Assembly: GCF_016907675.1 (NCBI RefSeq)
Contig: NZ_JAFBCJ010000001.1
Location: 3,906,001 to 3,970,000 of the forward strand
Direction of reading: 5' to 3'
Source: Geodermatophilus bullaregiensis
GTDB lineage: Bacteria; Actinomycetota; Actinomycetes; Mycobacteriales; Geodermatophilaceae
DNA: 64,000 nucleotides
Shown here: positions 40,311-44,545 of the stretch, piece after piece
How positions within the stretch are numbered: position 1 is the stretch's first letter
How the letters are laid out: the number at the start of each line of letters is the position of its first letter
Position numbers and translations under genes: made by a program
Notes under the pieces: generated by a model
Seen by the model: the letters and a program-made list of their open reading frames with translations, nothing else
What the model was told of the DNA's origin: nothing
Databases searched by the model: none

Positions 40311-41606
40311 TTGCCACCTGACGACCGGCGCGCGCCGCGCGGTCGGCTTCCCCGGTGGTTGCTGCAGCTGCTCGCCGTCATGGCGCTCATCCAGGCCGGG
40401 ATCGCGGTGGCCCGGCCGGTCACCACCTACCGGGCCATCGACCTCGGGGCGGGGGCGCTCGCGGTCGGACTGCTGACCGGTGCCTTCGCGCTCCTGCCGA
40501 TGCTGGTGGCGCTGCCGCTGGGCCGGCTGGCCGACCGGCGCCGTCCCGAGCCGATCCTCGTGGGCGGGCTGGCCCTGCTGGTGGCCGGCTGCGTGCTGCT
40601 GGCGGTCAGCGACTCCCTGTCCGGCATCGCCGCGGGCAACGTCGTCCTGGGGCTGGGCAACCTCGGCTGCATCGTCGGCGGGGAGAACGTCGTCGCCCGG
40701 CTGCCACCGGCACAGCTGGACGGCGGGTTCGGGCTGTTCACCGCCGTCGTCTCCGGCGGGCAGCTGGTCGGGCCCGCGCTGGCCGGGTTCGTGCTCTCGA
40801 CCGCTCCGGGCGACCTGTCCTCCGGCACCTCCCGCGCGCTGCTGGTGAGCGCGGGCCTGTGTGCGCTCGGCCTGCCCGCAGCGGTCTGGCTGGCGATCCG
40901 GCGGCGGTTCCCCGCTCCGCAGGGGCGGCCGGGGGAGCAGTCGCTGCCCGCCTCCCGGATCCTGCGGCTGCCCGGCGTCCCCTCGGGGGTGTTCACCAGC
41001 CTGGTCCTCGCCGCGGCCGTGGACCTGCTGACCGCCTACCTCCCGCTGCTCGGGGAGAGCCGCGGCATCGCGCCGTCGACGGTGGGGGTCCTGCTGAGCG
41101 TCCGCGCGGGGGCCACGGTGGCCTCCCGGGTGCTGGTGCCGCGGATGCTGCGGTGGCTCGGCCGGCCCCGCCTGGTGGTGCTGAGCACCGTCGGGTCGGG
41201 TCTGGCGGTGGCGTGCCTGCCGGCGGCCGGCAACGTGGCGGTCCTGGCCGTGCTGCTCGCCGGCATCGGCTTCCTGCTGGGCGTGGGGCAGCCGCTGATG
41301 ATGACGGTCATCGTCCGCGCGGTCCCCGAGGACGCCCGGGGGGCCGCCCTCGCCCTCCGCCTGGTCGGCAACCGGATCGGGCTCGTGGGCACGCCGGCGG
41401 CGGCCGGGCTCCTGGCGGGGACCACCGGGCTGTCCGCCGCGTTCTGGCTGCTCGGTGCACTCCTGGGCGTCGCCATCGTCGGTGCCCGGCACGACGTGGA
41501 GGAGGACGACGACGTGACACCCCCTCCGGGCCGGGCCACCGGCGCGGGCGACACCGCCGCGGGACGCGGACCGGTCACCGGAGCCGGAGGGGAGCGCAGC
41601 AGATGA
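40311..41606 (+). CDS. MFS transporter of the carbohydrate locus
   Basis: A 431-residue major facilitator with about twelve helices (LLQLLAVMALIQAGIAVARP to FWLLGALLGVAIVGA) and a motif-A loop ALPLGRLADRRRPEP. A polar tail of about 40 residues follows the last helix. No upstream GTG or ATG exists before helix 1, so TTG 40311 is used. It follows the ATPase by 51 bases and overlaps the GH115 remnant (ATGA), so it was an operon partner of that enzyme. It might export or import an oligosaccharide or uronate; direction is unknown. Confidence 0.82.
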   Translation: MPPDDRRAPRGRLPRWLLQLLAVMALIQAGIAVARPVTTYRAIDLGAGALAVGLLTGAFALLPMLVALPLGRLADRRRPEPILVGGLALLVAGCVLLAVSDSLSGIAAGNVVLGLGNLGCIVGGENVVARLPPAQLDGGFGLFTAVVSGGQLVGPALAGFVLSTAPGDLSSGTSRALLVSAGLCALGLPAAVWLAIRRRFPAPQGRPGEQSLPASRILRLPGVPSGVFTSLVLAAAVDLLTAYLPLLGESRGIAPSTVGVLLSVRAGATVASRVLVPRMLRWLGRPRLVVLSTVGSGLAVACLPAAGNVAVLAVLLAGIGFLLGVGQPLMMTVIVRAVPEDARGAALALRLVGNRIGLVGTPAAAGLLAGTTGLSAAFWLLGALLGVAIVGARHDVEEDDDVTPPPGRATGAGDTAAGRGPVTGAGGERSR

Positions 41607-42679
41607 CCTACCTGGCCGACCCGGGGTCCGGCGGGACCCTCATCGCCGAGACCGGGGGGACGACGAGGGTCCACGTCGACCCGGCCGAGAGCCCGGCCGT
41701 CCGGCGCGCCGCCGGCGACCTGGGGAGGGTCTGCCGCTGCGACGCGCGCCTCGCCCCGGACGGCCGGCGGCCACCGGATCGCCGTCGGGACGGTCGGCGT
41801 CAGTCCGCACGTCGACGCGGTGATCGCCGCCGGGAGGCTCACCGGCTCGGAGCTGCGCGAGGCGGACGGCTCCTTGCGGGTGGGAGGGCTTCCTCGTCCA
41901 GGTCGTCGACGACTGCCTGTACGTCGTCGGCGCCGACCGGCGCGGGACCGTCGTCGGGATCTACGACGTCTGCGAGGCGATCGGCGTCTCGCCGTGGGGG
42001 TTCTCCGCCGACGTGCCGGTGAGGCGCCGCGAGAGCATCCGCGTCCGGGCCGACGGTCTCCTGGCCGACCACCCGTCGGTGAGGTACCGCGGCATCCTCC
42101 TCGACGACGAGGAACAGCTCGAGGCGTGGGCGGCGCACACCGCGGACGGCACCATCGGGCCGGAGACCCACGCGCGGGTCCTCGAGCTGGTCCTGCGGCT
42201 CAGGGCAACCTCGTCTGGCCGGCGATGCACGTCACCCACGTCAACGGGGACCCGGAGAACGGCCGCCCGGCCGAGGAGATGGGCATCGTCGTCGGCACCA
42301 GCCACTGCGACGTGCTGCTGCGCAGCAACCAGAACGAGTGGCGTCCCTGGCTGGAGAGCAAGGGGTGCTCCGACGTCGCCCACGACTGCTCGATACGAAG
42401 CACGACAGCGACGACGACTCGTGCTGGCTCGCCCTCGACGGGACCCCGCAGCCCCTGGACGCCCAGTTCTGGGGTGGGGACCTGTTCGGCGTCGCCACGA
42501 CGCAGGTGCGGTGCTGGACGCTCCTGACCGACCTCGAGGTGGGCCGGGGCGAGCACGTCCTGTCCGTCCTGGCCCGCAAGTCGCGTCTCCGGATCGACCG
42601 GATCCACCTGACCACGGGCGACGAGCGGCCCCCCGCGGACGCGTCCTGGCGGAGCAGTCCGCGGCTCGCCGAGCAGTGA
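41603..42679 (+). pseudogene. GH115 alpha-glucuronidase remnant, several frameshifts and a deletion
   Basis: Starting at ATG 41603, pieces of one GH115-like protein appear in changing frames: ADPGSGGTLIAETGGTTRVH, then HRIAVGTVGVSPHVDAVIAA, then WGFSADVPVRRRESIRVRAD followed by VRYRGILLDDEEQLEAWAAH, then LVWPAMHVTHVNGDPENGRP and MGIVVGTSHCDVLL. Single-base shifts lie between 41740 and 41775, near 41879 (extra G) and near 42202 (missing G). At about 42390 the text jumps to a C-terminal end (DRIHLTTGDERPPADASWRS). About 350 residues remain of roughly 800-1000. GH115 enzymes remove glucuronic acid from xylan; this copy cannot be active. Confidence 0.75.
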
Positions 42680-43046
42680 GGCGCCGGCGAGGTCGGCTCC
42701 GCGGCCGTCCGGGTCGAGCGGGTGCGCCCGCGCCGCACCCCGGGCCTCGGGATGCCGCACCGGCGCACACCCCCGGCACACGGACCGCCGAGACGACGGG
42801 AGCGGCTCCTGCTACACCTGGGTGCTGCTGCTGGCGGGATCCGGGCGCGGTCATCGCGTCACCCACGGCAGACGTGCGCAGAGGCCGGCGCGCCAGAGGA
42901 TCCGTGCTCGACTCCTGTTCCGGGGATGGCGTGATCGTGTCTGTCGGCCGGCCCGGCCTGCCACGTCGAGCCGGGGTGGCTCGGACGGCGAAGGGCGCCC
43001 CGGTCCGCTGAAACGGCCCGAGGCGCCCTTGGGGGTGCCGTGTCGG
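42680..43046. other. Gene-free stretch between GH115 remnant and collagen-like gene
   Basis: No credible gene on either strand; the open frames here have no recognisable protein. It contains the terminator hairpin at 42991-43030. The rest may be more degraded remnant sequence. Confidence 0.5.
42991..43030 (-). terminator. Hairpin after the collagen-like gene
   Basis: AAGGGCGCC (42991-42999) pairs with GGCGCCCTT (43022-43030). On the minus strand it follows the collagen-like stop by 16 bases. The loop contains a further CGG/CCG pairing. Confidence 0.6.
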
Positions 43047-44006
43047 TCAGGCGATGGAGCGCACGTTGGACAGGTCCGGGCCGGTCTGGTTGTTGGCCGC
43101 GGCGTCGGTGTCGACGATGGCGCGGAGGAACAGCCCACCCTGCAGCTTGATCAGCCGCGAGGTCAGCGTGGCCAGGTAGCGCACGCCCAGCCGCGGGTCG
43201 AAGACGGTGCGCGGCGTGACGTCCAGCGCCGCCTGCTTGACCTTGGACGCCAGCTCGGCGGTGCTGGGCTGGTAGAGCCAGGCCGGACCCGAGGGACCCT
43301 GCGGCCCCTGCACGCCAGGCAGGCCGACCGGGCCGACCGGACCGGCCGCGCCCTGCTCGCCCTGCGGCCCCTGCAGGCCACGGACACCAGCGGCACCCTG
43401 CTCGCCCTGCAGGCCGGGCAGGCCCTGCAGACCGGTCAGGCCCTTCTCGCCCTGCTCACCGGTCTCGCCGATCACACCGCGCGGGCCCTGGGCGCCGCGC
43501 AGGCCCTGCTCACCCTGCAGCCCCTGCTCACCGCGCTCACCGACCACACCCTGGGGGCCGGTCTCGCCGCGCAGGCCCTGCGGGCCCTGCTCGCCCTGCT
43601 CCCCGGGGCGGCCGGTGGAGCCGGGCAGACCCTGCTCGCCCTGCGGGCCGGTCGCTCCCTCCGGCCCCTGCTCGCCCCGCGGGCCGGTCTCGCCGCGCAG
43701 CCCGGGCGGGCCCTGCGGGCCGATCGGGCCCTTGTCGCCGCGCTCACCGACCGGGCCGATCGGACCGGTCTGGCCCTTCTCACCCTTGTCGCCCCGCTCG
43801 CCGGCGGGGCCGACCGGGCCCTTGTCGCCCTTGTCACCGGGCTCGCCGGCGGGACCGACCGGACCGGTCGGGCCCTTGTCACCGGGCTCGCCGGCGGGAC
43901 CGACCGGACCGGTCGGGCCCTTGCGACCGCGGTCGCCCTCCTCGACGGTGACGTCGACGGGAACCGCAACGGTCTCGCTGCGTGTCGTGCTCTTGGACTG
44001 CGCCAT
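43047..44006 (-). CDS. Collagen-like Gly-X-Y repeat protein
   Basis: A 319-residue protein in three parts. A short N-terminus ([20 protein letters not shown]) is followed by 73 unbroken Gly-X-Y triplets (residues 24-242) rich in Pro, Glu, Gln, Lys and Arg ([16 protein letters not shown]). A 77-residue C-terminal domain ([20 protein letters not shown] to [11 protein letters not shown]) may drive trimerisation. It should form a triple-helical rod. It has no signal peptide, lipobox or sortase motif, unlike most bacterial surface collagens, so export is unclear. ATG 44006 is the natural start. It is monocistronic. Confidence 0.88.
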
Positions 44007-44472
44007 GGTGGAAACGGCCTCTCGTGTAGGTGGTCGGGTGGCAGGCGGCGTCTGGATGGCAACCCGCGGATCGGCCCGCTCGGGCCCGCGTCGAGTCGTG
44101 CTGGTGTCGGCCCGGCCGGCATCGGACGGGTCTGGCCCGAAATCCGCTCAGCCTCACCATGCCCTGTGCCAGCGGCAGCAAGCGCCCGGCCCCTGTGAGA
44201 CGAACCACGACGACAGCTGGCGCAGGCCGTCCGACCACGGGCCGGTCACCCCGGATGATCACTGGCGTCACCGAGCGCTCAGGGGTGTCCTCGGTTCGAC
44301 GAGGACGAGCAACCCGCTGGCTGGAACGTGGAGCAGCAGCTGACGGCCGTGCCAGATCGCCGGAGTCGATGGGCTTCCACGGCCAGAACCGGAGATGAGT
44401 GGGGATCGGAGTCCCAGAGGCGACGAAGCGGCGACGTCGGTGGGCATCGCCGCTGGTCGGGATCTTGCGATG
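44007..44472. other. Gene-free stretch between collagen-like gene and tRNA-Lys
   Basis: About 466 bases with no credible gene. It should contain the leftward promoter of the collagen-like gene and the 3' flank of the tRNA. GAGAGG lies near the collagen-like start. No clear promoter boxes, repeats or attachment-site duplication of the tRNA end were found. Confidence 0.5.

Positions 44473-44545
<73 letters not shown>

Follow-up and report, generated by a model that had tools for sequence, protein, structure and literature searches.

A predicted signal-less collagen whose C-terminal domain and tail are new and conserved, spread horizontally among Geodermatophilus and its relatives

The window, a 64,000-nucleotide stretch of the Geodermatophilus bullaregiensis genome, encodes a protein that its sequence marks as a signal-less bacterial collagen. 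Its C-terminal domain and tail are new and conserved, and the gene has apparently spread by horizontal transfer. The favoured reading, with a probability of about 0.4, is that a trimeric collagen rod is made in the cytoplasm and has its place of action within the cell or on the inner envelope, encoded by a self-contained, probably cAMP-Crp-controlled and horizontally spread unit. The gene and its parts are laid out as follows:

43047..44006, minus strand: collagen-like coding sequence, 319 aa, ATG start, stop codon at 43047-43049
43938..44006, minus strand: polar Ser/Thr-rich N-terminal segment, residues 1-23, no signal peptide seen
43281..43937, minus strand: 73 Gly-X-Y triplets without interruption, residues 24-242
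43050..43280, minus strand: 77-residue C-terminal domain, family unassigned, last residues SNVRSIA

The first-pass annotation had described 73 perfect, unbroken Gly-X-Y triplets and a 77-residue C-terminal domain, and counting bears out both figures. Shuffling the same residues 20,000 times gives runs of at most 10 triplets, and the Pfam Collagen model PF01391 scores the protein at 130.6 bits against a gathering score of 27.2 (E=1.7e-38). The layout was compared in 19 full-length members picked by the tail motif, namely the window copy, L008, L012, L013, L015, L017-L026 and L031-L034, with L027 (masked bases), L028 and L030 (cut by contig ends) and L029 (decayed) excluded. All 19 have an N-terminus of 21-41 residues, a repeat of 51-86 triplets without a break, and a C-terminal domain of 76-77 residues. 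Across the family, repeat length is free and the C-terminal end is fixed.

The C-terminal domain had been called unrecognised, and database searches agree. Searched alone, it finds no family at E<=10 in Pfam, PHROGs or NCBIfam and none at E<=1 in PADLOC, while comparison with PDB sequences, both by sequence and by profile, returns only noise (E>=0.5). With no PADLOC match, a role as a defence gene was set aside. An alignment of 23 rows, one of them a decayed copy, contains 19 invariant columns. The terminal SNVRSIA is kept in 18 of these rows and carries one to three changes in the other five (L018, L022, L028, L029 and L033), and the linker before it varies in sequence and slightly in length. 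Such a motif on a variable linker follows the pattern of a docking peptide and may be one. An AlphaFold model built from the 23 rows predicts two helices, H13-33 and H35-71, at pLDDT 62 and pTM 0.27; the predicted structure is poor, leaving a trimerisation role unproven, and it could not be used to seek remote homology through structure.

Genome searches show that the protein belongs to a genuine, patchily distributed family. Nine of 61 genomes searched with the C-terminal domain match, comprising eight of 26 Geodermatophilus genomes (the window's included) and one from another Geodermatophilaceae genus, and two of the 61 carry two copies. Among 112 Geodermatophilaceae genomes, 16 match and 96 do not; inspection leaves 14 intact-looking copies and one decayed one. 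The decayed copy, in Modestobacter caceresii (G113, L029:9739-9975), has its C-terminal domain behind a stop and has lost the repeat, and the match in G088 was rejected as false because it sits in an open reading frame with several hydrophobic segments, unlike the family. Wider samples, in which 13 candidates were scored per genome so that weak relatives may escape, give 14 matches in 397 genomes of the order, 13 of them Geodermatophilaceae, and the window's own genome as the sole match among 396 of the phylum. Two peptide patterns of the C-terminal domain, which diverged members may escape, found 18 named loci: these come from Geodermatophilus, Blastococcus, Modestobacter, another Geodermatophilaceae bacterium and Pseudonocardia oceani, and from metagenome-assembled genomes (MAGs) labelled Frankiales, Frankiaceae, Pseudonocardia and Pseudonocardiales. 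A literature search returned no report on this collagen family and none combining 'collagen-like protein' with Geodermatophilus, and the papers that pair Geodermatophilaceae with collagen are unrelated by their titles and the opening of their abstracts.

Recognised export signals are absent across the members examined, a conclusion supported by hydropathy and motif tests on the 19 full-length proteins. In the window protein the most hydrophobic 19-mer reaches a Kyte-Doolittle (KD) value of 0.92, and 19-mers starting at residues 1-69 do not exceed -0.11. None of the 19 members has a transmembrane-like stretch (top 19-mer 0.88-1.25), Arg-Arg within the first 45 residues, a cysteine anywhere, LPXTG, or YxxxD/E within the last 80 residues, which supports the earlier statement that signal peptide, lipobox and wall anchor are all missing. 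An overlooked upstream start for a signal peptide, which the first-pass annotation had named as a refutation, was not found either. The frame upstream of the window ATG stays open for 47 codons back to a stop, contains no ATG, GTG or TTG, and is not hydrophobic (hydropathy -0.41), so a signal peptide on an earlier start is ruled out. Hydrophobic stretches do occur farther upstream in frame in L013 and L017 (KD 1.71 and 1.88); since they lie before the conserved ATG and ribosome-binding-site-like sequence, and since a stop 4-16 codons before the ATG closes the frame in nine of the 19 members, they are not a shared signal peptide.

Other collagens of the genome and the phylum place this absence in context. 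The only other PF01391 match reported in the window's genome, at G000:C1:986482-986613 (L005), scores 26 bits against the 27.2-bit cut-off; its frame is a small lipoprotein-like open reading frame in which a 15-triplet Gly-rich stretch follows a hydrophobic segment and LLTAC, so that it looks exported. PF01391 exceeds its cut-off in 70 of 198 sampled genomes of the phylum. Among 29 other best-scoring phylum loci (L150-L178), 15 have at least 20 triplets and their 5' end inside the fetched piece, and nine of these 15 carry, at some point ahead of the repeat, a hydrophobic stretch with KD>=1.6; several of the six without one look non-coding to us. Collagens with an export signal thus seem to be in the majority in this sample, and a family without a signal in any examined member is notable, though perhaps not alone. 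Because most of the clear collagen frames in the phylum sample have such a hydrophobic stretch, the signal-less protein may still get to the surface by some other route.

Divergence comparisons point to a gene that is both maintained and mobile. In every gene pair computed dN is below dS (for the C-terminal parts of the window copy and L034, 0.018 against 0.116), a substitution pattern that shows purifying selection on the collagen-like gene. Against the G. obscurus DSM 43162 copy (G009, L034), collagen dS is 0.170 and that of the neighbouring L,D-transpeptidase, the one core gene serving as yardstick, is 0.456, a large difference that argues for horizontal movement; DNA identity is 95.8% in the C-terminal part and 81.4% in the core gene. 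The window and G024 give 0.26 for collagen and 0.46 for the core gene. For G024 and G009, which are closely related, dS is 0.104 in the core gene and 0.20-0.22 in the collagen genes. Comparisons with G003, G008, G013 and G014 give collagen and core-gene dS values that are alike, without a sign of transfer. Judged by these rates, the data show horizontal transfer at least for the window copy.

Alignments of the loci show the gene as a single-gene unit at several unrelated chromosomal sites. The units of one G003 copy and one copy from G024 match at 90% across about 1.43 kb, beyond which the alignment ends, and at many loci the gene unit can be aligned while the flanks share nothing above thresholds of 300 and 400 bases. 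Some copies do share a site: G008, G013, G014 and partly G015 form one group, and Modestobacter excelsi and M. altitudinis another, with B. endophyticus sharing part of the right-hand neighbourhood of the latter; G009 and one G024 copy share the left side of theirs. No transposase or integrase lies inside the shared unit, and precise single-gene transposition with target-site duplication is not proposed, as a clean empty site was not obtained.

The window copy adjoins a tRNA gene that serves the genus as an integration hot spot, and on its other side lies a gene remnant:

44472..44545, minus strand: tRNA-Lys(CTT), its 3' end forming the edge of conserved chromosome
41824..42679, plus strand: decayed glycosyl hydrolase family 115 gene, a PF15979 fragment with a broken frame and most of the model missing

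In 23 of 25 other Geodermatophilus genomes (the exceptions are G005 and G021), the right-flank match starts within 3 bases of the tRNA-Lys 3' end (44469-44472). In at least six of the 25 (G006, G008, G011, G012, G016 and G024 among the matches listed), a short stretch of that 3' end is repeated on the same contig at a distance of 5-34 kb, and these att-like copies resemble the traces that integrated islands leave. A search of the window itself found no second copy of the 3' end. Its left flank (41400-42700) is matched by the other 25 genomes in short pieces only, of which 112 bases at 88% in G020 rank first by significance. A 57-base piece beside the L104 copy in G024 recurs at G016:C12:201941-201996, in the interval from tRNA-Lys to the att-like copy, which may point to an exchange among islands.

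Elsewhere a tRNA gene lies within 700 bases of the collagen gene at L017 (Thr), L034 (Arg) and L027 (Tyr), which with the window makes four of 19 sources. Genes around the other loci were called with a codon model, and 40 neighbour proteins were scanned. They include DNA polymerase III delta', PhaC, MFS, M48, DUF520, glutathione peroxidase, enoyl-CoA hydratase and glutaminase proteins, along with a piece of an integrase core at L017 and a piece of a transposase at L023; the loci have no partner gene in common. SpoIIE-domain phosphatase genes occur within 10 kb of the collagen gene at three of 22 loci:

L033:7098-8306: SpoIIE-domain gene in a Pseudonocardiales MAG
L034:5899-7170: SpoIIE-domain gene
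L104:7926-8600: SpoIIE-domain gene

L034 and L104 represent one Geodermatophilus site, and identity between the proteins of L033 and L034 is 62%. The whole 64-kb window and the other 19 loci have no such gene. Because the window's genome contains 19 SpoIIE-domain genes (20 matches, two in one frame), chance alone would be expected to put one or two in such proximity, and no link to the collagen gene is claimed.

The conserved features around the coding sequence mark out the moving unit as a single gene flanked by an operator-like site on one side and a terminator-like hairpin on the other:

44194..44209, minus strand: candidate Crp/GlxR-like site CGTGG-N6-TCACA, position conserved in 15 of 19 homologues
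44159..44183, minus strand: promoter-like pair GCTTG-N14-GGGCAT, conserved in the alignment, sigma factor assignment inferred
44004-44165, minus strand: leader with two small hairpins, modest covariation
44018..44024, minus strand: ribosome-binding-site-like CGAGAGG
42990..43030, strand unassigned: conserved terminator-like hairpin

The window's genome encodes a Crp-type protein with the helix SRETVNKALADF. In 15 of the 19 members TGTGA-N6-TCACA, a consensus picked after the alignment had been seen, finds its best match, with 7-9 of 10 bases, between positions -195 and -218 relative to the ATG; in L021, L031, L032 and L033 the best match falls elsewhere. Shuffling of single sequences gives P values of 0.00-0.12 in 14 of the 15 and 0.59 in L025, mostly not significant alone, so the case for the site rests on its conserved position. 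The same motif is given as the GlxR consensus in PMC7999487. Compensatory changes affect 10 of the 18 predicted pairs of the terminator-like hairpin across 16 sequences. In the leader hairpins 90.2% of cells are paired, and three of 500 shuffles reach the covariation score; the nine double-change cells, six of them in three related Modestobacter rows (L023, L025 and L026), and a whole-leader fold no better than that of shuffles (z 0.63) led us to make no claim of an RNA regulator.

Set against known systems, the protein is partly familiar. It shares a long uninterrupted Gly-X-Y core with streptococcal Scl1/Scl2 and Legionella Lcl, and its repeat scores 144.7 bits against NCBIfam SclA, 136.6 against SclB and 123 against Lcl, far short of the cut-offs of 400, 325 and 500. 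Unlike those proteins, it has no visible signal peptide, no LPXTG and a different C-terminus. Bacillus BclA likewise combines a collagen core, no classical signal peptide and a C-terminal domain. The BclA domain is a jelly roll, whereas Pfam finds no TNF-like C-terminus in the window protein, its low-confidence model (pLDDT 62) is helical, and its gene family has spread by horizontal transfer. The prophage collagen-like proteins of E. coli O157:H7 (PMC3368898) have the Gly-X-Y repeat and horizontal spread in common with it, but no phage genes were found around the window gene, and its domain has no match in PHROGs or viral contigs.

Other explanations of the protein differ chiefly in where it acts and whether it serves the cell. 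The bacterial collagens known to us act outside the cell or on virions, and the strongest competing account, a little less probable than the favoured one, is a collagen of the cell surface or of a spore/bud coat. It would exit with no classical signal, through developmental coat assembly or lysis, and work much as BclA does. Its general layout of polar N-terminus, long uninterrupted repeat and C-terminal domain is that of surface collagens, the life of Geodermatophilus includes a budding/zoospore cycle, exosporium collagens of the BclA type also do without classical signals, and three of the 22 loci have the SpoIIE-domain genes near by. That proximity is within chance expectation, the remaining loci lack it, and the hosts of the family are, to our knowledge, not endospore formers. 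The gene also occurs in Modestobacter and Blastococcus, which we do not know as noted spore formers, it has no match in the great majority of family genomes, and the domain is predicted, at low confidence, to be helical rather than a BclA-like jelly roll. Export through type VII or another specialised system, for which the C-terminal domain would be the helical secretion module, is improbable: an actinobacterial host and the two helices of the low-confidence model would suit it, but the YxxxD/E motif is missing from every full-length member and the 40 scanned neighbours include no type VII family.

Equally hard to credit is a mobile unit, selfish or neutral, that makes a product of no use to the cell. 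The patchy and mobile distribution, the paired copies in two genomes and the decayed Modestobacter caceresii copy would fit it, while dN below dS, the conserved operator-like site, leader and hairpin, and a shared unit free of transposase or integrase speak against it. Least probable of all is a phage source, with the gene as what remains of a tail fibre or of some other phage cargo. The repeat itself matches PHROGs tail-fibre families (best 9e-59), as Gly-X-Y proteins would, and the tRNA site is a hot spot of integration, yet the C-terminal domain, for which homology to phage tail fibres had been named as a refutation by the first-pass annotation, has no relative in PHROGs or viral contigs, and 50,697 phage records give matches only at E about 9. 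Phage families are missing from the window neighbours, as the first-pass annotation had stated, and equally from the 40 neighbour proteins of other loci, so a phage origin was rejected; plasmid relatives were dismissed as well, with matches only at E 4-9.

An intracellular function is thus plausible from the sequence evidence and slightly favoured over non-classical export, a close rival. In the favoured reading, the collagen-like chains would be made and trimerised in the cytoplasm, where three of them may be brought into register by the conserved C-terminal domain. Zipping together, they would form a triple helix whose 73 triplets span about 63 nm, given the collagen triple-helix rise of 0.286 nm per residue. 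In PMC4066190, each of the eight bacterial collagens produced in E. coli assembled into a triple helix. The resulting rod might be a spacer or scaffold that serves within the cell or on the inner envelope, which is the least certain step, with the near-invariant SNVRSIA on its variable linker possibly docking to a partner. The self-contained unit, probably under cAMP-Crp control as its promoter region suggests, would have been passed horizontally among Geodermatophilaceae and their relatives, entering intergenic sites near tRNA genes and elsewhere. The fuller proposal of a dedicated intracellular collagen, combining a cytoplasmic rod, a new C-terminal registration domain and a docking tail, and spread as a minimal operator-to-terminator unit, is more tentative still.

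With examined members that lack a recognised export signal, a fixed C-terminal domain and tail, and spread between species, the family offers a concrete way to test whether bacteria employ triple-helical rods in their interior. Its C-terminal domain is also a new candidate trimerisation domain for recombinant collagen.
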